A stretch of DNA of 64,000 nucleotides from assembly GCA_023544645.1 (NCBI GenBank), contig JAMJFO010000012.1, positions 1-64,000 on the forward strand, read 5' to 3'. A model generated the notes under the pieces. That model was not told the DNA's origin. It ran no database searches and worked only from the letters and a program-made list of their open reading frames with translations. Position numbers and translations under genes: made by a program. Of this stretch, positions 429-9,988 are shown one piece after another. Every line of letters starts with the position of its first letter. Position 1 is the first letter of the stretch. The stretch is from Desulfobulbaceae bacterium. GTDB taxonomy: Bacteria; Desulfobacterota; Desulfobulbia; Desulfobulbales; Desulfobulbaceae.

Positions 429-725
429 ATGAAAAACAATAACAGCAACAATATTAAGAGTTGGATGGCCGCAGCTGCTTTTGCTGAAGCAGGTGAATGG
501 GATACCGCTAAAGAAATGATTCCTGAAAGCCGCCCCAACACAGAAATCAGCTTGGTTGCACGTGTTTTTGCCGCAGTAGCCTTTGCCGAAGAAGGGCTTC
601 ATCATTATGCGCAGCAATTTGTTGAACAAGGCCGCTGCACACCGAAAAAAAGCTTTGAGGACGATCTGGCGGCACTTGGGATAGGGAGAATACACTTGCG
701 CTACGGGGTTGTTTGTTGCGAATGA
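429..725 (+). CDS. Small two-repeat protein with AFAEAGE motif
   Basis: This 98-residue protein belongs to no family I can name. It contains two copies of a helical-hairpin-like unit: one at about residues 12-30, with core AFAEAGEWDTAKEM, and one at about 47-64, with core AFAEEG. The pattern (aromatic, A-E-A-G-E, then A three to five residues later) resembles half of a TPR helix pair. The start has a strong GGGAGG ribosome-binding site. A clear paralogue lies on the minus strand at 8903-9202 and shares both units and the C-terminal S-x-E-D-x-L region. It is the first gene after a sigma54-type promoter and precedes two receivers that carry the same motif in their tails. A protein-binding adaptor role is inference. 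Confidence 0.8.
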   Translation: MKNNNSNNIKSWMAAAAFAEAGEWDTAKEMIPESRPNTEISLVARVFAAVAFAEEGLHHYAQQFVEQGRCTPKKSFEDDLAALGIGRIHLRYGVVCCE

Positions 726-821
726 TAAGCCCAATATCAAGAGGCGAGTGTTTGCATACCAGCGATGATGGACTTGCCGGAATCAGCAAAAACAATCCGA
801 TGCTTGTGGGGAAAAACGTAA

Positions 822-1343
822 ATGCAGCCGCGTGTCTTGCTTGTGAATCAGGATCTGCTTTTTTTGGAGACCTTGAGCAGAAAATTGCAACAACACCGGC
901 TCTCCGTCAAGACGGCCTCCAGTGACGAGGATATCTTCATCCGGTTGAATGATGGCGAGGTGGATGTTGTACTTCTCGACGTCCGCTTTAACGGAGAAAA
1001 AGCTGTTCAAACAATGGTTCATGCAAAAAACGAGCATCCTGAAATTGAAGTCATCCTTCTAAGTAATGCGGAAAGCATTGGGTGGGCGATGGCGGGAATG
1101 CGGGAAGGAGCGTTTGATGACATAGCAGAACCATTTGACGTAGAAAAACTTGTCGGGCGAATCGGTGCCGCCCTGAAAGTGAAAAGAAAAAGAGAAGGAA
1201 GATTTTCATTTTCTAAGTTTTTCGAAAAAAACATGATGGCGGCAACCTTTGCACAGGCAGGAGAATTTGACGCCGCAAAGAGCCTCATGGATAGTGGAAA
1301 GAAATCAAAAAAGGCGTCAAAGAAAAAGAACTCGAGCGATTAA
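822..1343 (+). CDS. Degenerate response-regulator receiver with AFAEAGE-type tail
   Basis: A 173-residue single receiver domain. The phospho-acceptor aspartate is kept (D53 in VVLLDVR), but the acidic pocket reads NQD instead of DDE and the invariant lysine is replaced by glutamate (E103 in AEPFD). Normal phosphorylation chemistry is therefore doubtful. After the receiver a basic linker leads to a tail at residues 139-156 with core ATFAQAGEFDAAKSLM, the same motif as in the small upstream protein, then a Lys/Ser-rich end. The start at 822 has GGGG 11 bases upstream. It sits between the small repeat protein and a canonical receiver; a broken homologue is at 8299-8861. No DNA-binding domain is present. 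Confidence 0.8.
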   Translation: MQPRVLLVNQDLLFLETLSRKLQQHRLSVKTASSDEDIFIRLNDGEVDVVLLDVRFNGEKAVQTMVHAKNEHPEIEVILLSNAESIGWAMAGMREGAFDDIAEPFDVEKLVGRIGAALKVKRKREGRFSFSKFFEKNMMAATFAQAGEFDAAKSLMDSGKKSKKASKKKNSSD

Positions 1344-1375
1344 GCAATTCAAACCTCACATCAGGATGGGCATTT

Positions 1376-1855
1376 ATGAAAGAAATGAAAGTACTTCTAG
1401 TAGATGACGAGGAAACATTCGTTAAAACACTGTCGGAACGCCTCAATATGCGCGACATGAAAAGTGACTCGGTGTTTAACGGAGAACAGGCGCTGGACTT
1501 TGTTGACGACAACGAACCGGACGTGATGGTCTTGGACCTGAAAATGCCCGGGATTGACGGCATGGAGGTTCTCCGTCAAGTCAAGAAAAAATATCCCAAC
1601 ATCCGGGTCATTATCCTGACTGGACACGGAACAGATCTGGACGAGGAGGAAGCCAAAAGGCTCGGCGTGTTCGATTACATGAAGAAACCCGCTGACATCG
1701 ACACGCTTGCCCAGCGCATCAAAGCAGCCTACCTGGAAAAAATACAGCGGTCAATGACAGCAGTCGCGTTTGCAGAGGCTGGCGAACATGACGAGGCCCG
1801 GAAGATAATGATACAGGAAAACAAAAAAGACAAAAAAGACGATTCAAAGAATTAG
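1376..1855 (+). CDS. Single-domain response regulator with AFAEAGE tail
   Basis: A 159-residue CheY-like receiver with all phosphotransfer residues: D10/D11, phospho-acceptor D54 (MVLDLKMPG), T82 and K104. It should accept a phosphoryl group from a histidine kinase that is not encoded next to it. Residues 126-145 form the tail motif SMTAVAFAEAGEHDEARKIM, followed by a Lys/Asp-rich end. No output domain is present, so it probably acts by protein contact, perhaps through the tail. It is closely related, with identical receiver numbering, to the minus-strand receiver at 7890-8294, which lacks the tail. Confidence 0.88.
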   Translation: MKEMKVLLVDDEETFVKTLSERLNMRDMKSDSVFNGEQALDFVDDNEPDVMVLDLKMPGIDGMEVLRQVKKKYPNIRVIILTGHGTDLDEEEAKRLGVFDYMKKPADIDTLAQRIKAAYLEKIQRSMTAVAFAEAGEHDEARKIMIQENKKDKKDDSKN

Positions 1856-1865
1856 GAGCTTCCCC

Positions 1866-2306
1866 ATGGAAAAAAAATTAGAAGCAAGCGTATTGCTGGT
1901 TGACGACGAAGAGCAGTTTCTGGACATGCTGTCCCAGCGCCTTGGGACCCGTGGACTCAAGGTGAATACTGTTACCAGCGGAGAAGAGGCGCTGGATCGG
2001 GTAACAGATCACAATTACGATGCGATTGTGCTGGACCTGGCCATGCCGGGCATGAACGGCATTGAAACCCTGAAACAGATTAAAGAAAAAAGGCCGGATA
2101 TTGAAATTATCATGCTGACCGGCCACGCCAACGTCAAGGACGGCATCGAGGCCATGAAAATCGGCGCTGAAGATTTTCTGGAAAAACCAATCGATATCAA
2201 CGTGCTCCTGGAGAAAATATCTGAAGCCAAGCACAAACGAATGATCGTTGTCGAAAAAAAACACCAGAAAGAGGTGAAAAAAATAATCAAGAGTAAGAGC
2301 TGGTAA
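1866..2306 (+). CDS. Single-domain response regulator
   Basis: A 146-residue receiver with D13/D14, D57 (IVLDLAMPG), T85 and K107 all present. The region after about residue 125 is a strongly basic helix rich in lysine, with no DNA-binding fold and no AFAEAGE tail. An AGGAG ribosome-binding site stands nine bases before the ATG, and the gene starts ten bases after the previous stop, so the two are probably co-transcribed. The partner kinase is unknown. The neighbours suggest that it belongs to the same signalling module as the DASS transporter downstream. Confidence 0.85.
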   Translation: MEKKLEASVLLVDDEEQFLDMLSQRLGTRGLKVNTVTSGEEALDRVTDHNYDAIVLDLAMPGMNGIETLKQIKEKRPDIEIIMLTGHANVKDGIEAMKIGAEDFLEKPIDINVLLEKISEAKHKRMIVVEKKHQKEVKKIIKSKSW

Positions 2307-2319
2307 CAGTACCATCTTG

Positions 2320-2336
2320 GGAGCCGAGTCGGCTCC
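2320..2336 (+). terminator. Small GC-rich hairpin after the receiver genes
   Basis: GGAGCC and GGCTCC form a perfect six-pair stem with a five-base loop, 13 bases after the stop of the receiver gene. There is no T-run, so it is at most a weak or Rho-assisted terminator, or an RNA-stabilising hairpin between the receiver genes and the CBS-transporter genes. Confidence 0.35.
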
Positions 2337-2480
2337 GGCATCTGATATAGAACGATTTGTTTTGAAGAAGGAGAATCTTTAACAGGAAACGTACGCCTTC
2401 GCCAGGAGGACGGCATATCTGCACCAAATACATGAACAATAGTACCAAAATATCAACAAGTAAAGAAAAGGAGCAGGCTC

Positions 2481-3005
2481 GTGACTACTGATATCCCGGC
2501 AGTAAAAGACCTTGTCATTCCCATTGAGAGGTATCCCCATGTCAATCAGGATAAGACTCTCCATGATGCTGTACAGGTAATTCAATCGTACACATGCGGT
2601 GAAAATGACCGTATAAGGTATTCCGAAATCATGGTGGTAAACGATCAGAACCAGCTGGCAGGCCGCTTATCCATCCTGGATGTTTTACGTGGCCTTGACA
2701 AACGTTTTTCTGAGATCCCCAAAGTGAAGGAGTTTGCAGGAAAGGGATCAGATTACCCCAACCTGACCATCCTCTGGGAAGATGCTTTTTTTGTTGGATG
2801 CGCCAAAGGTGTTTCCAGGCCTGTCCGTGAATTCATGTCACCGATAAAGAACATGGTCAAGACCAGCGATTCGTTGTTAAAAGTCCTGTCAATCCTGTTG
2901 AGCTTGAATTGTCAACTTCTCCCTGTGGTAGAGGGGAAAAGGGTTGTCGGCGTGATCCGTCTCGAAGAGATTTTCAAAGAGATAAGTGTTCGGTGCGGTT
3001 TGTAA
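2481..3005 (+). CDS. Two-CBS-domain protein
   Basis: This 174-residue soluble protein fits a tandem CBS (Bateman) module. The first unit spans roughly residues 8-72 (EIMVVNDQNQLAGRLSILDVL) and the second roughly 113-170 (REFMSP, then LLPVVEGKRVVGVIRLEEI). CBS pairs bind adenine nucleotides and often gate transporters or enzymes. The start is GTG with a good AAGGAG site nine bases upstream. The gene lies 49 bases before the DASS transporter, so a regulatory role for that transporter is a reasonable inference, although the ligand cannot be read from the sequence. Confidence 0.78.
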   Translation: MTTDIPAVKDLVIPIERYPHVNQDKTLHDAVQVIQSYTCGENDRIRYSEIMVVNDQNQLAGRLSILDVLRGLDKRFSEIPKVKEFAGKGSDYPNLTILWEDAFFVGCAKGVSRPVREFMSPIKNMVKTSDSLLKVLSILLSLNCQLLPVVEGKRVVGVIRLEEIFKEISVRCGL

Positions 3006-3054
3006 ACAAGGTTGGGAAGTTTCGAATCAATAAAGGAAATGAGGTAGAGGAACC

Positions 3055-4545
3055 ATGACGAATGCAACAACAGAGATGGGCGTGATGACTGAAAAAGAGC
3101 CCATTGATTGGAAGAGGATAATTTTTCTGCTTACGGGTATAACCCTGTTCGGGGTTGTTTACTTTTCTCCTCTCTGGCCGGATGCTGTTGACCCCCAGGG
3201 AGAACATTTTATTTTGACCAAGGAAGGCAAGGGCGCCATCGCAGTATTTCTAATTGCTGCCACTTGGTGGGTTTTTGAGGTGGTTCCCATCGGTGTTACC
3301 AGCCTGACCATAGGCCTGCTCCAGGCTCTTTTTTTCATCAGACCGGCAAAAGTGGCATTCAAGGATTTCATGGACCCATCCGTCCTCTTTATTTTCGGCT
3401 CCATCGTCATCGGCATGGTTTTTACTAAAACAGGCCTCACCAAACGCATCGCCTATAAAATGCTCGCCATCGTCGGTGAAAAAACAAGCATGATCTATCT
3501 GGGCTGCTTTGTCCTCACCGCTGCGCTCACCCACATTATGGCCCACACAGCGGTGGCGGCAACCATGTTCCCCCTGCTCATGGCCATATATGCCCTTTAC
3601 AGCGACGAAACAAAACCTACAAAGTTCGGCAAGGGGTTATTTATTGGCATGGCCTACGTCGCCGGCGCCGGTAGTATCATCACCCTCCTCGGTGCGGCCC
3701 GTGGCGCTGTGGCACTGGGTTTTTACAAAGATATCACCGGTCAGGACATCAGCTTTTTCCAACTGACCTATTACATGGCTCCGATCGGCTGGGGCATGAC
3801 CATACTGCTATGGGTGTTTTTCATGTTGGTCTGCAAGCCCGAACAGGAAACCATTCCAGGCCTCAGAGAAAAAGCGAGCCGTATGTACAAAGAGCTTGGC
3901 TCCTGGAGCACCAAAGAAATCATGACCGCTGTCATTGTCGCGTCCACCATTCTGGTTATTTCGCTTAAATCTTTCGTTCCTGCTTTTTCTGAGCTCGACA
4001 AAACCGGGGTGCTTCTTGTCTCAACCGTTCTCTTTTTCGTGGTCAACATTCTCGACATCAACGACCTGGAAGAAATTCCCTGGAATATCATTCTCCTCTT
4101 CGCCGGTGCCATGTCCATCGGCTTCTGCCTCTGGGAGACCGGGGCTGCCAAGTGGATGGCGGTCAACTGGCTCACCATGTTTCAAAACGCGCCTGCCATC
4201 GTCTTTATTCTCGGCATGGCCTTTTTTGTCATGATAATGACCAACTTTATCATGAACGTTGCCGCAATCGCCATCTCCCTGCCGGTTGCCCTTGTTATCG
4301 CCCCTTATCTCGGCGTCGGCGGCGAGGTTATCGTCTTTTCCGCTCTGATTGTGGCCGGTATGCCCTTTCTGCTTCTTGTTGGGGCTGCGCCAAACGCTAT
4401 CGCTTACAACTCGAAGCAGTTTACGACCGCTGAATTTTTCATGTACGGCATCCCTGCAAGTTTACTGCTGATGGTGGTCACCTGGGTTGCGGTTCAGTTC
4501 ATCTGGCCGATAATGGGCATGACGGTCTACCTGCCGACCCCATAA
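3055..4545 (+). CDS. DASS/SLC13-type anion transporter with atypical SNT motifs
   Basis: A 496-residue inner-membrane protein with about 11-12 hydrophobic segments and the two-fold layout of the divalent anion:Na+ symporter family, which carries dicarboxylates, citrate or sulfate. In characterised members the two re-entrant hairpins carry Ser-Asn-Thr motifs that bind Na+ and substrate. Here the equivalent positions read A163-H164-T165 (IMAHTAVAATMFP) and M400-N401-V402 (FIMNVAAIAISLP), so coupling or substrate may differ. The GAAPNAIAY motif near residue 450 is kept. The CBS gene upstream and a receiver-carbonic-anhydrase-like fusion downstream suggest controlled uptake of an anion; which one is unknown. 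Confidence 0.85.
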   Translation: MTNATTEMGVMTEKEPIDWKRIIFLLTGITLFGVVYFSPLWPDAVDPQGEHFILTKEGKGAIAVFLIAATWWVFEVVPIGVTSLTIGLLQALFFIRPAKVAFKDFMDPSVLFIFGSIVIGMVFTKTGLTKRIAYKMLAIVGEKTSMIYLGCFVLTAALTHIMAHTAVAATMFPLLMAIYALYSDETKPTKFGKGLFIGMAYVAGAGSIITLLGAARGAVALGFYKDITGQDISFFQLTYYMAPIGWGMTILLWVFFMLVCKPEQETIPGLREKASRMYKELGSWSTKEIMTAVIVASTILVISLKSFVPAFSELDKTGVLLVSTVLFFVVNILDINDLEEIPWNIILLFAGAMSIGFCLWETGAAKWMAVNWLTMFQNAPAIVFILGMAFFVMIMTNFIMNVAAIAISLPVALVIAPYLGVGGEVIVFSALIVAGMPFLLLVGAAPNAIAYNSKQFTTAEFFMYGIPASLLLMVVTWVAVQFIWPIMGMTVYLPTP

Positions 4546-4618
4546 CATCGAAGACACCAGGACAATGAACCTTTGCCATGCACGGAAAGACGGATCTTAT
4601 ATTGGAGAAAGTAGAGCT

Positions 4619-5707
4619 ATGCAGGAAGAAAAAAAAATAAAAGTGCTGCTTGTTGATGATGAAGAGACCTTTGCCAAGACCCTATCCGAACGTTTGACAA
4701 CCCGAGATCTTGCATCAGAGGCGGTTTTTGGCGGCACCCAGGCTCTGGAATCCATCGGCGCCGATGAACCGGATGTCATGGTTCTTGATCTCAAAATGCC
4801 CGGAATGGATGGCATGGAAGTGTTGAGAAGGGTCAAGAAAAATTACCCAAATATCAGAACAATCATTCTCAGCGGCCACGGCACTGATACCGACAAAAAA
4901 GAAGCCGCCGAACTCGGGGTGGTTGATTTTCTCGTAAAGCCAGCCGCGATAAACATGCTTACCGAAAAAATCAAAGTCGCCTTTGCTGCGAAAAGCAGCC
5001 CTGAAATGATGTATTCATACAACGATTTCGTTCCTATCCTGAAAAAACATCTCAATAATGAAGGCGTAACCCTTGGGAAAAACGCCCTTGGCATAAAATG
5101 CTTTTGCCGGGACGACAATCAGGATCATATCGGCGCCTTGCTCATGAGCACCGGCAGCAGTACTGGATGGTTTGACCTCAATGCCTTCGGCGCCTTTCCT
5201 GCGGGACGCAGCCTCGAAAGCCTTGGCCCGCCTTCGCATCATATCCCTGAGTTGCTGAAGGATCCATGGACTGTGGTGCTCCACGCCACCCATGTGGGCT
5301 GTGATTCAAAATTCACCCTTGGCATGACGGACCGGTACGGCATGAAAAAACCCAGCGCCTCCTGCGGATTGCTTGCCGCAATATTGAAACGCCATAACGA
5401 TCGCCGCAATGGGATAATCCCTCCCGTCCTCCGCGATTTTGAAATGCACGAAACAGAGAAGGCGCTTCTCCCCCATCTCGACAAAATACAAGAGACAGCC
5501 TATCCGATGGCTGCTATCGCTGAAAAGCTCCAGGAGCTTGGCTGCGACATTTTTGACGCTCTGCTTAAAGAAAGCGGCACCAAATCCATTTATATCGGCG
5601 GCATCAATGTCGACTACGAGGCTGAAAACCCGGCGAATAATTTTTTTGTCCCCAAGAAGGTCTTTCTTTATGAAGGGGGCATAAGAAGAGAGCTGGCAAT
5701 CAACTGA
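4619..5707 (+). CDS. Response regulator fused to an LCIB-like (beta-carbonic-anhydrase-type) domain
   Basis: A 362-residue protein. Residues 1-125 are a full receiver (D13/D14, D57, S85, K107). Residues 130-362 form an output domain whose order of conserved residues matches the LCIB/LCIC beta carbonic anhydrase family: C-R-D-D at 163-166, then FDLNAFGAFPAG at 185-196, then H225 in HATHVG, then S246-A-S-C249-G-L-L. In that family the zinc ligands are Cys, His and Cys with an Asp-Arg pair. The match is from memory of the motif pattern, so the domain name needs a profile search. I chose the ATG at 4619 (GGAG upstream) over an earlier in-frame ATG at 4565 because the receiver begins there. It is the last gene of the transporter cluster. 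Confidence 0.7.
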   Translation: MQEEKKIKVLLVDDEETFAKTLSERLTTRDLASEAVFGGTQALESIGADEPDVMVLDLKMPGMDGMEVLRRVKKNYPNIRTIILSGHGTDTDKKEAAELGVVDFLVKPAAINMLTEKIKVAFAAKSSPEMMYSYNDFVPILKKHLNNEGVTLGKNALGIKCFCRDDNQDHIGALLMSTGSSTGWFDLNAFGAFPAGRSLESLGPPSHHIPELLKDPWTVVLHATHVGCDSKFTLGMTDRYGMKKPSASCGLLAAILKRHNDRRNGIIPPVLRDFEMHETEKALLPHLDKIQETAYPMAAIAEKLQELGCDIFDALLKESGTKSIYIGGINVDYEAENPANNFFVPKKVFLYEGGIRRELAIN

Positions 5708-5729
5708 GTGGAACAATCTGCCCTGAACC

Positions 5730-5779
5730 AGACTTGAGTTGACAATGGCCAGGTTCTTCCGGACTGTCAACTTAAGTCT
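5730..5779 (+). terminator. Long inverted repeat after the transporter cluster
   Basis: AGACTTGAGTTGACA (5730-5744) pairs with TGTCAACTTAAGTCT (5765-5779) with one mismatch and a 20-base loop, 23 bases after the stop of the receiver-LCIB gene. The T-run is poor (CGTCTTCTC), so it may be an imperfect terminator or an RNA-end stabiliser. Confidence 0.4.
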
Positions 5780-6007
5780 CGTCTTCTCACAAATAATCAA
5801 AAAGCGGCTTTACTCAATGTCCACTGTTTTGTGGCAAGGTCACTAATGTGCCGCGCGGCTTTTTGCGTCGGCAGAATTAAGCCTGCTCGGCCTTTCTCGG
5901 GTTAAAGATATCTGAAATAGGAGTTGAATTTGGCCTCGATAAATACAGTTCCGTGAGCAGCATAGTAATCAGAACTGAAAAGCTGATAGTGCAAAAAAAC
6001 AGCTTAA

Positions 6008-6172
6008 GAAAAGGATAGAAAGATAATTTTTGTGGTGGACCATGCCCTTGTCATGGCTGAGGAGTTCACCCTTATGCGCAAGTCAAAGCCGGTGCTTCTC
6101 GCAACAGGGCGCTCATCTGGGGGATAATCGCCTTTGGGGCTATGCCAGCCTTGGAATGCCCCATGCCGCTGG
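6008..6172 (+). pseudogene. Remnant of an NhaD-type Na+/H+ antiporter
   Basis: In one frame the translation reads ALVMAEEFTLMRKSKPVLL followed by ATG. After a shift near base 6111 it continues LIWGIIAFGAMPAL. EE-x4-RKSKPV-x-LA-x-G followed by an I-I-W-type helix is the pattern I associate with NhaD antiporters. There is no start codon or ribosome-binding site, and stops lie on both sides (TAA at 6005 and 6125), so this is a broken fragment of about 50 codons. The rest of the gap between 5780 and 6382 contains nothing else I can support. The family assignment is from motif memory only. Confidence 0.45.
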
Positions 6173-6382
6173 ACTTTACAACCTGCCTGAACAGCCACTC
6201 TTTTTTCATTTCATTTTCAACTATTATGGTTTTATTTACAGCGTGGTTATCTCAATCTTTTTTTCACGAATCGACATCCGGAACTCCTCCCGGCCACTTG
6301 CCCTTCCTGCAAATTTACCTCGTACCATACCCTTCCTTCTTCATTGACACAGTGCAGATTATAATAAACCCCGGCAATTGAT

Positions 6383-6835
6383 TCATGGAGCCGCAAATAT
6401 TCCCCTGTGGAGTATGAAATCCGCATTGAGTTTCTTAAAAACTTCTTTTTTATCTGGGGGACGCTTGACCATGACCTTAGCGTCTTCAAGCACAAAAGTG
6501 AGATAGTATTGAAAATGAATTTTCTTTACCTCTGCGAAATCTTTTACAACAATCCCACGTTGATCATGGAAGATGAAGGAAATTTTCTTTGCATCAAAAT
6601 CAAGCGTCACCTGCCTGGCAAACCGTTTTCCGAACACGAAATACACAAAGTACAAGGGCACCACAAATACCAGGGCCTGAATAAACGATTCCTCTGCACT
6701 CATTCCTGAATATATAACACCAAGTATGGTGAACGTAATCATTGCTGCCAACCCCAAGAGGTGAAAATATTTGAAAAAATATCGCTCTTCTCCAGGCATA
6801 AAAATAGTATAGATCTTTGTGTTTATTTCATTCAT
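6383..6835 (-). CDS. Small membrane protein with two TM helices and a PH-like C-terminal part
   Basis: A 150-residue protein with two hydrophobic segments at roughly residues 24-44 and 52-68, then a cytoplasmic beta-rich stretch (KKISFIFHDQRGIVVKDFAEVKK, read approximately) resembling the PH-like domains of YcxB/DUF304-type membrane proteins. I do not recognise a precise family. It is AT-richer than most neighbours and stands alone between broken genes. The start at 6835 has only a weak ribosome-binding site. Function unknown. Confidence 0.6.
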   Translation of the reverse strand: MNEINTKIYTIFMPGEERYFFKYFHLLGLAAMITFTILGVIYSGMSAEESFIQALVFVVPLYFVYFVFGKRFARQVTLDFDAKKISFIFHDQRGIVVKDFAEVKKIHFQYYLTFVLEDAKVMVKRPPDKKEVFKKLNADFILHRGIFAAP

Positions 6836-6918
6836 ATACAGGCACCCAATACTCTCAACAACCTTTTATATCATATTTTTTCACTTTCTTTAAAACTCAT
6901 CGGATATACTCCATGAAA

Positions 6919-7255
6919 TTACAAAGCAGAACCAGCTAACTCCAGGGCTGACATTTCAGCCTTTCCCATGACGATCAGATCGTTTTCTTTTTTGTGGGAA
7001 ACATCAATTATCGTATCCGACGGCCTGCCGTCCTGGAATAACACATCCATGGCCACTTTTTCCTGCCGCGAAATAAGTTTCACGCCGGAGACGACATCAT
7101 CCCTTTCGTCCCCGCTGATATCTTTGGCAAAAAAAGGAACAACCACAAGCACATGGCTCTCATTCCACCGTGCTATGCGGCAGGACATCCTGAGATGTGT
7201 ATTCCGTGGAGATGGTGCCGTCATAGGGAACGAGAATTTTATTGTAATGCCTCAA
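6919..7255 (-). pseudogene. Frameshifted universal stress protein (UspA family)
   Basis: A TTG start at 7255 with a good AGGAG site gives NKILVPYDGTISTEY, the typical UspA N-terminus, but this frame stops after about 30 codons. A shift near 7180 restores a Usp-like continuation with IARWNESHVLVVVPF, then PSDTIIDVSHKKENDLIVMG, and an early stop at 6919. Even after repair the product would be about 112 residues, short of the usual 140-150 and lacking the C-terminal G-x9-G-S region beyond a short stub. It looks like a decaying gene. Confidence 0.65.
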
Positions 7256-7276
7256 AATTTCATCTCCTGATTTTAA

Positions 7277-7316
7277 AAACGGTGCGATATGGATATTAAC
7301 ACATACCGCACCGTTT
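7277..7316 (-). terminator. Rho-independent-type terminator ending the minus-strand module
   Basis: AAACGGTGCG (7277-7286) and CGCACCGTTT (7307-7316) form a perfect ten-pair stem with a 20-base loop, and on the minus strand the stem is followed by TTTTTAAAA-like sequence. It stops transcription coming from the 7.5-9.2 kb module before the broken usp gene. The flanking A/T tracts would also allow it to work on the plus strand. Confidence 0.55.
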
Positions 7317-7462
7317 AAAAATAACGGGAATCAGTGCATTGCAACCAGTCCCGAAGCTGAGAAGAAAAAAGCCCAGCGAGACCAGTCCGATCTGCATGAC
7401 CGACATGCCGCCCTCGGCGGTCGGAGCATCGGCGATCTAAACATTCTGCGAACAGTATCCAT
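7296..7462 (-). pseudogene. Possible small membrane protein with internal frameshift
   Basis: An ATG at 7462 with AAGGA 12 bases upstream begins MDTVRRMF, but this frame then turns into an Arg-rich run typical of a wrong frame. Another minus frame over the same bases gives a credible segment (DAPTAEGG, then a membrane helix LVSLGFFLLSFGTG) ending at 7296. Joining the two needs a frameshift near 7430. The end overlaps the terminator stem, which speaks against a functional gene. It may be a relic of a small transporter-associated protein. Confidence 0.3.
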
Positions 7463-7546
7463 GGTGTTTTTCTTCCTTTGTGATTATTAAAAACTTGCTT
7501 ATGCAGATTTACTGATCAGTATTTCAAAATGACCGTAATGGCGCGG

Positions 7547-7849
7547 CTAAGGAGACAGGCCCATTTTCTTTATCTTCCTCCATAACGAAACCCGGTCGAT
7601 CCCGAGTATTTCCGCCGCCCTGGTCCGGTTGTGATTAACATGCCGGAGAACGTGCAGAATGTGATTACACTCCACCTCCCTCAGCGTGGGCAGCCGGTTT
7701 TCAGCCGGATCAGTGCCGGATTTGTTCCCGCCGTTGAGGCGGGGGGGATCTGTTTCGGCTTTGCCGCTGCCGGCAGGAGTCTTATCAGCCGACAGTGACT
7801 TGCGTTTTATTCTTCGCGAAACATTTCGCTTTCTGCGCAAAGAATTCAT
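7547..7849 (-). CDS. Orphan Fis-type helix-turn-helix protein
   Basis: About 100 residues. The C-terminal 45 residues (EVECNHILHVLRHVNHNRTRAAE-type helix, then ILGIDRVSLWRKIKKMGL) are the Fis/NtrC-type DNA-binding domain, with the recognition helix DRVSLWRKIKK at the end. The N-terminal half is basic and unstructured, with no receiver or AAA+ domain. I chose the ATG at 7849 (AAGG upstream) over ATGs at 7876/7873, which lie too close to their ribosome-binding site. It may be a free-standing regulator of the sigma54 modules or the remnant of a larger NtrC-family activator. It follows the receiver gene on the same strand. Confidence 0.65.
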   Translation of the reverse strand: MNSLRRKRNVSRRIKRKSLSADKTPAGSGKAETDPPRLNGGNKSGTDPAENRLPTLREVECNHILHVLRHVNHNRTRAAEILGIDRVSLWRKIKKMGLSP

Positions 7850-7889
7850 CAGTTCAACCTTCCCTTGCGTCATCATTCCCTCCGCCCGA

Positions 7890-8294
7890 TTAAAAAGCTG
7901 ATTCCAGCTTCATTCCATCGATTTGCCTTTTCACCTGCGCGGCCGTCCTGATGCGCTCGGCAAGCAATTCGATATCGACTGGTTTTTTGAGATAATCAAA
8001 AACTCCCAGTTTCCAGGCCTCAGCAGTTTCCTCGTCGGCGCCGTGCCCTGTCTGGACGATTACCTGAATGGTCGGATAATTCCGCCTTACCTGACGAAGA
8101 ACTTCCATTCCGTCTATCCCCGGCATTTTCAAGTCAAGGACCATGACATCGGGCGCGGCGCCGTTCAGTTCACGAATGGCGTCCAGCCCGCCAAGCGCGA
8201 CATCACTGGACAAATCCCTCAGGTCAAGTCGCTCCGCCAGTGTCCTGACAAAATTTTCCTCATCGTCCACCAGTAGTATTTTGATATCTTCCAT
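7890..8294 (-). CDS. Single-domain response regulator (module copy 2)
   Basis: A 134-residue receiver with D10/D11, D54 (MVLDLKMPGIDG), T82 and K104, all at the same positions as the plus-strand receiver at 1376-1855, to which it is clearly paralogous. The start at 8294 has AGAGGT upstream and follows the stop of the broken receiver gene at 8299. The open frame continues upstream only because of the frameshift in that gene. It ends soon after the receiver (KLESAF) and lacks the AFAEAGE tail of its paralogue. Confidence 0.82.
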   Translation of the reverse strand: MEDIKILLVDDEENFVRTLAERLDLRDLSSDVALGGLDAIRELNGAAPDVMVLDLKMPGIDGMEVLRQVRRNYPTIQVIVQTGHGADEETAEAWKLGVFDYLKKPVDIELLAERIRTAAQVKRQIDGMKLESAF

Positions 8295-8298
8295 ACTG

Positions 8299-8861
8299 TT
8301 ACCTCTTTCTTGCGTTTTTATTCGTGCTGCTTTCGCCCGAATCTTTTTTGCCGTTATCAACGCTTTCTTCCGAAGCTGATGCGTCCATGATGCTGATCGC
8401 CGTATCAAATTCCCCGGCCTGGGCAAAGCTACGGCGCTCATCGAATCCTCGAAAAGCTTCTGCAGCGAGCGCCTGTGCCTGACAACGCTCTTTTTCCTGC
8501 TGCGATGACATGCTTCAACGACCTTGCGCTTCAACTTCTCCATGTCAAACGGAACCGTCAGGTCATCACTGGCGCCGGCCCGCATGCCAGCCATCGAGGC
8601 GTTCACGTTGTCGCTGTAATTGATCAGAACCACATCGACGGAAGGCATTGATTCGCGAATCAGCCTGAGCCCGCCAAGCATTTTTTCGGCCTGATGGCGA
8701 ACATCGACCAGGACAACGTCGATTGCAGCAGGCCATCCCTACCCCTTCCCCGGCTTATGCTGGTGGACGGTCGCACCCCACTGCCGCAGTTTCCCGCCAA
8801 GTGTTTCCAGCAGTGAATCGTCTTGGGTCACGATAAGAAGCGCGGCGTCTGCCCGCTCCAT
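8299..8861 (-). pseudogene. Broken degenerate receiver (module copy 2)
   Basis: Homologue of the receiver at 822-1343. The ATG at 8861 gives LLIVTQDDSLLETLGGKL, then an in-frame TAG stop at codon 41 (8739-8741). The same frame continues with IDVVLVDVR, MAGMRAGASDDL and VPFDMEKL. Near 8429 one base is missing: the frame leaves SMSAVA, and the other frame resumes FAQAGEFDTAISIMD and ends at 8299. Repaired, the protein would have the same layout as its plus-strand paralogue, including the tail motif, and it too lacks the conserved lysine (V before PFD). Two independent lesions make loss of function likely. Confidence 0.75.
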
Positions 8862-8902
8862 GCGTCCGCAGTTACCGCCAAGCATCTGCCGCAACGAGGG
8901 TT

Positions 8903-9202
8903 TCAGCTTGCCCTGACGGAAACCACGGCATAGGTTACCGACACTCCGCGCAGTCCGGTCGCTTCAAGAAAATCTTCAATGCTGTGATGATGGCGGCGGG
9001 GCTGTTCATCCATGATGCGTATTGCTTCTTCATGGAGCCCGCCTTCGGCAAAAGCGACCGCCATAAATGCTTTTTGCAGATACCCCAGCCTGCTTTTGGG
9101 AGTGGAAGGAGGAATCATCTCCCTGGCGACCTCCCATTCACCTGCTTCGTCAAAAGTGACAGCCATCATCCAACCGCGATATTTATCAGACGATTCGTTC
9201 AT
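8903..9202 (-). CDS. Small two-repeat protein with AFAEAGE-type motif (module copy 2)
   Basis: A 99-residue paralogue of the plus-strand protein at 429-725. Unit one is at residues 11-29 (WMMAVTFDEAGEWEVAREM) and unit two at about 46-64 (FMAVAFAEGGLHEEAIRIM). The C-terminal S-x-E-D-x-L region and the Y-x-V-V end are shared with the paralogue. GGAGG stands eight bases before the ATG at 9202, and a sigma54-type promoter lies further upstream. Unlike the next gene in its operon it is intact. Function unknown; the repeats suggest a small helical binding protein. Confidence 0.78.
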   Translation of the reverse strand: MNESSDKYRGWMMAVTFDEAGEWEVAREMIPPSTPKSRLGYLQKAFMAVAFAEGGLHEEAIRIMDEQPRRHHHSIEDFLEATGLRGVSVTYAVVSVRAS

Positions 9203-9278: not shown

Positions 9279-9589
9279 AATAAAAATATCAATAAAAACG
9301 AGCAGTTAAACAAACAAACACAAACACGCCCCAGCCTCCTTGATACATTGAGAAACAATTCGAAACAATCGCCGGACAAGTAATACACGGGTACTGGCCA
9401 CGGCTCGCTCTTGAAAAAAAAGGAACGACAAACAAATACAAAATAACAGGTATATAAAAATGTTATGAAAAAAAAATTGACAAAACCCTGTCATTTACGC
9501 AAATTGAAACTTATTAAGACGTGATGAAACAGAACTCTAACCCCTGCCTGTTCATCATGCTTACTGCTCGTTCACCAAAGGGGACGAAT
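9279..9589. other. AT-rich spacer between divergent genes
   Basis: This 311-base stretch separates the second sigma54-type promoter from the PAS-receiver chimera. The 62-codon minus frame in it is hydrophobic low-complexity sequence without a ribosome-binding site, and I do not call it. A TTGACA occurs near 9477, but I see no matching -10 at the usual distance. Confidence 0.5.
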
Positions 9590-9988
9590 GTGAATCCTGA
9601 AGACGTAATCAACGGCATACCGCACCCGGTTGCGATTCTTGATGCCCAGCTTCGCGTATCATCCATGAACTGCAAACTTGAGGCCATTACAGGACATGCT
9701 TCCGGCGCCGTAAAAGGAATACGGGCCGAACACGTTATTCGGTTCAATTTCGGGACCGGCGGCATCGAAAAGGCCCTGCAGGGAGAGCAGCCGCTGACCA
9801 GAGAAGGCGACATTATCAAGAACCACGACCCGGCAATCGAAATTATCATGCTCACCGGGCACGGTTCAACAGCCAGCGGCATTGAAGGCATGAAAAAAGG
9901 ACTTTTCGATTACCTTATGAAACCGGTTGATATCGGCGAATTAGTTATCAAAATAAATGAAGCCGCCGCAGTAAAGAATTCTGAATAA
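9590..9988 (+). pseudogene. PAS fragment joined to the second half of a receiver
   Basis: From a GTG at 9590 with AAAGGGGA six bases upstream, 132 residues. Residues 1-65 resemble a PAS domain (INGIPHPVAILDAQLRVSSM, then AITGHASGAVKG). Residues 77-132 are the second half of a receiver (EIIMLTGHGSTASG, then FDYLMKPVDIGEL) with T and K but no acidic pocket and no phospho-acceptor Asp. The junction suggests an internal deletion in a longer PAS/receiver protein. It has a clean start and no stops, so it might still be expressed; I class it as a deletion remnant with moderate confidence. Confidence 0.5.

Follow-up and report, generated by a model that had tools for sequence, protein, structure and literature searches.

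A TPR-like helical hairpin shared by proteins encoded near anion transporters in Desulfobacterota, and its possible role as an assembly module

The two cassettes of the window

The window, a stretch of 64,000 nucleotides from a Desulfobulbaceae bacterium, carries two cassettes with genes for small tandem-hairpin proteins and receivers. The plus-strand cassette starts with small tandem-hairpin protein A (98 aa; 429..725), whose two hairpins (456-533 and 558-635) are spaced by 34 residues and whose C-terminal motif, LGIGRIHLRYGVV, is common to its family. AlphaFold2 modelled protein A as two helix-turn-helix hairpins (H4-20/H24-30 and H42-54/H58-66) with a pLDDT of 76 and a pTM of only 0.38. The following gene (822..1343; Pfam Response_reg, E 5e-12) encodes a receiver joined through a basic linker to a C-terminal hairpin (1224-1301), with NQD instead of the acidic pair and EP for KP, the conserved Lys being absent. 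We regard it as a pseudo-receiver because the acidic pair and the Lys are lacking in its family (alignment of 14 orthologues), some members of which have also lost the Asp.

The next receiver (1376..1855; Response_reg, E 6e-28) is canonical and likewise ends in a hairpin (1745-1822); D10-D11, D54, T82 and K104, the residues expected of a receiver, are invariant across 23 orthologues. In its AlphaFold2 model (pLDDT 87, pTM 0.77; helices 108-134 and 138-154) alpha-5 and helix A of the hairpin form a single unbroken helix, and confidence is low over the hairpin, indicating that it is not packed on its own receiver. A third, single-domain receiver (1866..2306; Response_reg, E 3e-33) gave no hairpin match. 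Downstream lie a CBS-domain protein (2481..3005; PF00571, E 9e-12), found again in 11 hairpin loci, a DASS-family (sodium:sulfate symporter-like) anion transporter (3055..4545; PF00939, E 8e-40), found again in eight, and a protein that joins a receiver to a beta-carbonic anhydrase domain of the LCIB type (4565..5707; Response_reg, E 5e-26; LCIB_C_CA PF18599, E 8e-18), a fusion also present in the related locus L159; all of these genes are on the plus strand.

The second cassette, on the minus strand, is decaying. It comprises small tandem-hairpin protein B (99 aa; 8903..9202; hairpins 9178-9101 and 9076-8999), a decayed hairpin pseudo-receiver (8299..8861), interrupted in frame by a TAG codon at 8739-8741 and by a change of frame near 8430, which cuts its hairpin in two, and, behind it, the partner canonical receiver (7890..8295; Response_reg match), whose receiver domain is intact and whose hairpin is lost, the translation ending in RQIDGMKLESAF before the stop.

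A preliminary description of this DNA had counted seven copies of a motif in the small proteins and receiver tails, and both pattern and profile searches recovered all seven: two per small protein, one per hairpin receiver, and, in the broken receiver, a half copy. The six full copies start at 465, 567, 1233 and 1754 on the plus strand and at 9169 and 9067 on the minus strand, and the half copy (RSFAQAGEFDTAISIM) spans 8427-8377 (minus strand). When a profile of nine copies was searched against the own genome, the full copies in the window scored E 1e-14 to 1e-12 and the half copy E 7e-6, and four further full copies were found outside the window, on contigs C13 and C124. With the consensus xFxxxMxAxAFAEAGExxTAxxxL, the motif forms a compact alpha-alpha hairpin that is TPR-like and about 25-28 residues long.

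Relation of the hairpin to TPR and other helical repeats

No Pfam or NCBIfam family covered the motif at curated thresholds, which rules out an ordinary named domain and agrees with the preliminary description, for which the motif had no named domain. That description had also considered an ordinary TPR, and here the answer is divided, since the period and signature are TPR-like, whereas the motif stays below threshold in Pfam and usually occurs as a single copy. Consecutive tandem hairpins are spaced by exactly 34 residues, the TPR period, in 34 of 55 cases and by 35-36 residues in seven more. Compared with the TPR signature (W4, L7, G/A/S8, Y/F11, A20, F/L24, A27, P32), the hairpin keeps positions 8 (A 94%), 11 (F 92%), 20 (A 96%) and 24 (L/M 63%); positions 4, 7 and 27 are unconserved, and position 32 lies beyond the 28-column model. 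The best Pfam TPR models reached 17-18 bits against cut-offs of 26-27, and TPR_4 matched five of 42 copies at E<=1, below its threshold. A TPR superhelix is built of at least three stacked repeats; the proteins here carry one to three, and the two-hairpin model has a low pTM (0.38) and a best VIA Z of about 4. Thus, the hairpin resembles TPR (Pfam TPR_4/TPR_6/TPR_14) in its helix-turn-helix unit, its 34-residue period, a small residue at 8, an aromatic at 11, Ala at 20 and a hydrophobic residue at 24, but differs from it by being mostly single (at most three copies), by its FAEAGE signature, by scoring below every Pfam TPR cut-off, and by being grafted onto receivers, universal stress proteins (USPs) and a membrane protein.

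A significant structural match to a known fold was rejected, because searches with Foldseek and VIA gave nothing significant (Foldseek E>=1.4, VIA Z<=4.2); the match lists consisted mostly of TPR/PPR chains, at non-significant scores indistinguishable from a common helical arrangement. In the PDB profile search, the small-protein family matched best the hairpin of ribosomal protein S20 and the TPR arrays derived from it (5fzq, 5fzr), at E 0.024, 0.056 and 0.79, the top match being a designed TPR. The S20 hairpin is non-repetitive and resembles a TPR unit, and TPR arrays have been designed from it (PMC5074805). It is comparable to the hairpin described here, but the S20 hairpin gains structure within the ribosome, whereas the present one exists naturally in one, two or three copies within a single gene neighbourhood.

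Carriers of the hairpin and their gene neighbourhood

Among 96 relatives, 29 had the hairpin according to the nine-copy profile (best E 1e-14); when a 42-copy profile was applied to 395 Desulfobacterota genomes, 47 contained it. The 82 loci examined hold 253 copies. A column-shuffled control profile, made from the 42-copy alignment, matched nothing below E 0.04 in the genomes of the 96 relatives, and an origin as a chance or low-complexity helix is therefore ruled out. A genome scan with a close alignment of the small proteins returned 29 loci, all from Deltaproteobacteria/Desulfobacterota or unclassified proteobacterial bins.

The preliminary description was right that receivers and small proteins share the hairpin but drew the circle too narrowly: the carriers comprise tandem small proteins (two or three hairpins and no other known domain), the pseudo-receiver and the canonical receiver, but the hairpin is also found on degenerate USP domains, on mini proteins and on a small membrane protein adjacent to TauE/SafE (TSUP) permeases. 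The hairpin may stand at the N-terminus, at the C-terminus or within USP domains. Across the 253 copies, and in many families, A8, F11, A12, E13, G15 and A20 are strongly kept, and individual cassette positions have their own signatures, such as ...AITFAEAGEW.TAR.M.P in the first and ...AFAEeGlh.eA in the second hairpin of the small proteins, and ATFAQAGEFDTA in the pseudo-receiver; nearest neighbours agreed in class at 0.70, compared with 0.14 after shuffling. The USP-like domains with hairpins have, by sequence, lost the ATP-binding signature GxxGx9G(S/T), which is present in 0/43 members of the hairpin-USP family vs 17/19 neighbouring double USPs; their Usp fold matches are weak. The membrane protein lies -31 to +105 bp from the TSUP gene in loci where that gene was found and has an N-terminal hairpin in six of 13 loci; all seven loci with a hairpin-less version encode a separate mini-hairpin protein nearby.

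Hairpin genes cluster with a transporter, and a histidine kinase and sigma-54 regulator usually belong to the cluster too. For 31 of 39 hairpin clusters (16 genomes), a TSUP, DASS or CitMHS gene was no more than 8 kb away, with 1.8 expected; the remaining eight, of which some are near contig ends, had no transporter in that range. Receivers, CBS proteins and DASS transporters recur in the hairpin clusters, the outcome that the check proposed in the preliminary description looked for, and the lack of enrichment near receivers that would have spoken against it is not seen. Moreover, 38 of 43 loci with a canonical hairpin-receiver form a conserved cassette, in which a small hairpin protein and/or a hairpin pseudo-receiver is encoded upstream.

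In this context, the D. vulgaris cluster DVU0539-DVU0545 resembles the USP-type hairpin loci in gene make-up, a match by layout alone. Its description lists a divergent kinase/sigma-54 regulator, two USPs, a putative sulfate-type exporter and a small membrane protein, with molybdate phenotypes for the cluster (PMC10102598), and DVU0539 activates the DVU0542 promoter (PMC3333781). The transporter is described there as a member of the PSE family (PMC10102598), vs TSUP in the hairpin loci, and the passages on this cluster (PMC10102598, PMC3333781) mention no hairpin. Our literature search found no paper with AFAEAGE and none combining Desulfobulbaceae, USP, TauE and response regulator.

A possible assembly module for transporter regulators

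The sequence evidence makes it somewhat probable, in our view, that the hairpin is a common assembly module for anion-transporter regulators in Desulfobacterota, from which we infer docking between its carriers. A common docking element for small proteins and receiver tails had been proposed in the preliminary description, and that idea is partly supported. Hairpins of different proteins would pack against each other, with the two- or three-hairpin small protein as a hub and the hairpin of the membrane protein (fused, or supplied by the mini protein) tethering the assembly to the permease; the occurrence of this hairpin either fused or as a separate protein is counted as fusion evidence for a shared assembly. 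In receiver-type loci, the kinase of the locus would phosphorylate the canonical receiver and alpha-5 would move; as alpha-5 is continuous with the hairpin, we propose that this movement alters the assembly and transporter activity. The pseudo-receiver and pseudo-USP domains might then be fixed structural or sensing subunits. The canonical hairpin-receiver has the acidic pair, Asp, Thr and Lys of CheY-like single-domain response regulators and, like these, no DNA-binding or enzymatic output, but is distinguished from them by its C-terminal hairpin continuous with alpha-5 and by its paired pseudo-receiver. A more specific version, which we regard as rather doubtful, is a TPR-like solenoid assembled in trans at the transporter, in which the single hairpins of receiver, pseudo-receiver, pseudo-USPs and membrane anchor would stack onto the tandem copies in the small protein to give one composite repeat array, and phosphorylation of the receiver would edit this array and hence anion flux.

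The sharing of the hairpin could also come from gene duplication within the clusters, without mutual docking. Dimerisation is common for single hairpins that expose a hydrophobic face, and some receiver proteins dimerise through C-terminal helices, much as alpha-5 runs on into the hairpin here; each receiver or USP might therefore only homodimerise through a two-hairpin four-helix bundle, with no joint complex among different proteins. We consider this unlikely, because it leaves unexplained the small proteins with two or three tandem hairpins, the stand-alone mini hairpins, the position-specific signatures across the cassette and the alternation of fused and separate hairpins at the membrane protein.

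The 34-residue period, the TPR-like positions 8, 11, 20 and 24, the sub-threshold TPR_4 matches, the designed TPR as best PDB profile match (E 0.024) and the TPR/PPR chains in the non-significant structure lists would also be consistent with a degenerate TPR-superfamily member that, like ordinary TPR domains, recognises a peptide, e.g., a terminal tail of the transporter, so that the proteins share a ligand and not each other. A TPR peptide groove requires about three repeats, however, whereas most hosts have a single hairpin, and no match reached curated thresholds, which makes this explanation quite improbable. That the hairpin occurs at N-termini, at C-termini and inside USP domains, and that one cassette of the window is in decay, might finally point to a mobile leftover of recombination within clusters, or to a proteolysis or adaptor tag, without any role in assembly; this seems very improbable to us, as the conservation of A8, F11, A12, E13, G15 and A20 over the 253 copies and the class-specific signatures argue for selected contacts.

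The hairpin provides a single sequence handle on many genes that surround anion transporters in sulfate reducers and their relatives and have lacked an explanation, among them those for output-less single-domain receivers, pseudo-receivers, USPs without the ATP signature and tiny uncharacterised proteins. It also predicts which of these proteins should share one complex, in a field in which the regulation of sulfate-type transport in these organisms is poorly understood. That TPR-like hairpins occur naturally in one, two or three copies next to each other also bears on how repeat proteins arise through hairpin amplification (PMC5074805). If the reading as a shared assembly is true, the hairpin would be a new and simple assembly tag.

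Hairpin clusters of the window and the fold of the motif

A plus-strand cluster opens the window, encoding a small protein with two hairpins (small protein A, 429-725), a receiver-like protein (pseudo-receiver, 822-1343), a receiver with a hairpin (1376-1855), a further receiver (1866-2306), a CBS protein (2481-3005), a DASS-type transporter (3055-4545) and a receiver fused to an LCIB-type carbonic anhydrase (4565-5707); ORFs were called mechanically. On the minus strand lies a second, decaying hairpin cluster, with small protein B (9202-8903), a decaying pseudo-receiver (in-frame stop at 8739-8741, frame change near 8430) and a receiver whose tail is lost (8295-7890). The segments 7547-9202 (minus), 6919-7224 (minus) and 9521-9988 (plus) were noted as remnants of a second receiver cassette resembling those with TauE/SafE permeases (TSUP), and they include a Fis-type HTH fragment (7547-7876, minus), a fragment like universal stress proteins (USP), called by eye (6919-7224, minus), and an orphan receiver fragment (9521-9988, plus). 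All seven motif copies listed in the preliminary description were found, the seventh as the second half of the motif only, and its statement that the motif has no named domain agrees with searches of Pfam and NCBIfam, neither of which names it.

A single copy comprises two helices joined by a tight GE turn. Of 55 tandem spacings, 34 measure exactly 34 residues, the same period as in TPR. TPR-like residues are also conserved at positions 8 (A), 11 (F), 20 (A) and 24 (L/M), but not at positions 4, 7 and 27. The few copies matching Pfam TPR models all fall below threshold; in profile searches of the PDB, the top matches (E 0.024 and 0.056) were TPR arrays designed from the ribosomal S20 hairpin (PMC5074805), followed by S20 itself. 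AlphaFold2 modelled small protein A as two hairpins (pLDDT 76, pTM 0.38), and the structure matches of this model were mostly TPR/PPR, none of them significant. Because the period and positions are TPR-like but the matches are sub-threshold or non-significant, we describe the motif, from its sequence and predicted structure, as a TPR-like hairpin without assigning it to TPR.

A profile of nine copies recovered each full copy of the window (E 1e-14 to 1e-12), four additional full copies in the same genome, and the motif in 29 of 96 relatives; with a 42-copy profile it was detected in 47 of 395 genomes of the phylum (E<=1e-4). The column-shuffled 42-copy profile gave three matches against the same 96 relatives (best E 0.045), which, set against the strong real profiles, rules out a chance motif. 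A scan for the small-protein family over 84,980 species returned 29 loci, exclusively from Deltaproteobacteria, Desulfobacterota or proteobacterial bins; it reaches W-type small proteins only, and lineages without a match may still carry the hairpin. The small-protein alignment comprised only 19 sequences.

Host proteins and their degenerate domains

We gathered 253 copies from 82 loci. The hosts are small proteins of about 95-135 residues (two or three tandem copies and a conserved terminal (G)LRGIxxTYG segment), pseudo-receivers and canonical receivers (one copy behind the receiver domain), USP-like domains (copies in front, within, or repeated ahead of the domain), mini proteins of about 50-80 residues, and a membrane protein of about 115 residues directly adjoining the TSUP permease (hairpin N-terminal). 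Many mini proteins end in an Arg/Pro-rich tail, e.g., RPRARMYRT or RPELRV; the form RPxxR(x)Y(R/K) or RPELRV is common to those at L113:6586-6762, L118:6189-6359, L130:6725-6946 and L066:7045-7230 (L-numbers denote hairpin loci of related genomes), and may be a second binding element.

Throughout the pseudo-receiver family the acidic pair and the conserved lysine are absent, and some members also miss the phospho-acceptor Asp. The ATP signature GxxGx9G(S/T) is absent from all 43 hairpin USPs and kept in 17 of 19 double USPs of the same loci. Given these losses of catalytic or ligand residues, the hairpins mark one active receiver and several pseudo-domains.

The hairpin of the canonical receiver continues directly from alpha-5, with no linker, and AlphaFold2 predicts alpha-5 and hairpin helix A as one helix (108-134); the pseudo-receiver has a basic linker between domain and hairpin. 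Because model confidence is low in the hairpin (block means 81, 64 and 57) compared with the receiver domain (mostly 92-97), the canonical hairpin is not packed against its own receiver and looks available to a partner. Mean hairpin identity is higher for the same position across loci (0.46) than within one locus (0.37), and nearest-neighbour hairpins share their position in 70% of cases, a value partly raised by the shared ancestry of close genomes, against 14% with shuffled labels; such position-specific likeness would follow if every position made contacts of its own. In the TSUP-adjacent membrane protein the hairpin is fused in six loci and unfused in seven, all seven with a mini hairpin nearby; the mini gene is also present in three of the six fused loci, so that the two forms are not mutually exclusive. 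Fused and separate forms together point to delivery of the hairpin to the permease.

Transporter neighbourhood and candidate anions

Clustering near transporters was borne out when all TauE/SafE (PF01925) and CitMHS-type (PF03600, whose matches include DASS) genes were located in 16 genomes: 31 of 39 hairpin clusters have a TSUP or CitMHS/DASS gene within 8 kb, against 1.8 expected from gene density, although the clusters are partly non-independent (same or related genomes), so that a formal probability should not be read at face value. Other genes found repeatedly in these loci encode histidine kinases, solo receivers, CBS proteins, double USPs and PAS or receiver sigma-54 regulators. Among 43 canonical hairpin-receivers, the upstream genes include a small protein plus pseudo-receiver in 24 cases, a small protein alone in 11 and a pseudo-receiver alone in 3. 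L171, from another family, carries a complete USP-type cassette (mini hairpin, USP, unfused membrane protein, TSUP).

Several further proteins were observed in these neighbourhoods. A conserved membrane protein of about 230 residues (MIAHKKEFxGGLLLxxGFW...), matching no Pfam family above cut-off, directly adjoins a 440-residue TSUP permease in 15 loci (including L055:11239-11928, L058:2235-2921 and L154:6146-6844), and a PPDK_N plus PEP-utiliser protein of about 860 residues recurs in TSUP-type loci (L150:15699-18329 and 17 others). Near the kinase and PAS/sigma-54 regulator of receiver-type loci stands a small NifX/NafY-like protein (L157:2207-2560 and 20 others), with a Nitro_FeMo-Co match just below cut-off. 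Recurrent proteins of 210-250 residues, encoded next to a solo receiver (L111:5204-5902, L123:5230-5934, L159:1760-2437), combine a DHp-like SHExxN motif with a marginal HATPase match and are putative split or reduced histidine kinases.

The transported anion probably differs between loci. For the TSUP loci, the suggested substrates are sulfur oxyanions or sulfonates. LCIB-type carbonic anhydrases accompany DASS in six of eight DASS hairpin loci (fused to a receiver in the window and at L159:7241-8332; also L060:7235-7975, L111:9795-10508, L129:3859-4572 and L057:11612-12808), which suggests bicarbonate or a related carboxylate as the substrate of these transporters. By gene layout alone, DVU0539-0545 of D. 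vulgaris resembles the hairpin loci; parts of this cluster have opposite fitness effects in the presence of the sulfate analogue molybdate (PMC10102598), and in E. coli its sigma-54 regulator, DVU0539, was shown to activate the promoter of DVU0542 (PMC3333781).

Proposed working

We propose that hairpins of different proteins would pack mutually, with the small protein as hub, that the assembly would be anchored at the membrane, and that a phosphorylation-dependent change may pass through alpha-5.
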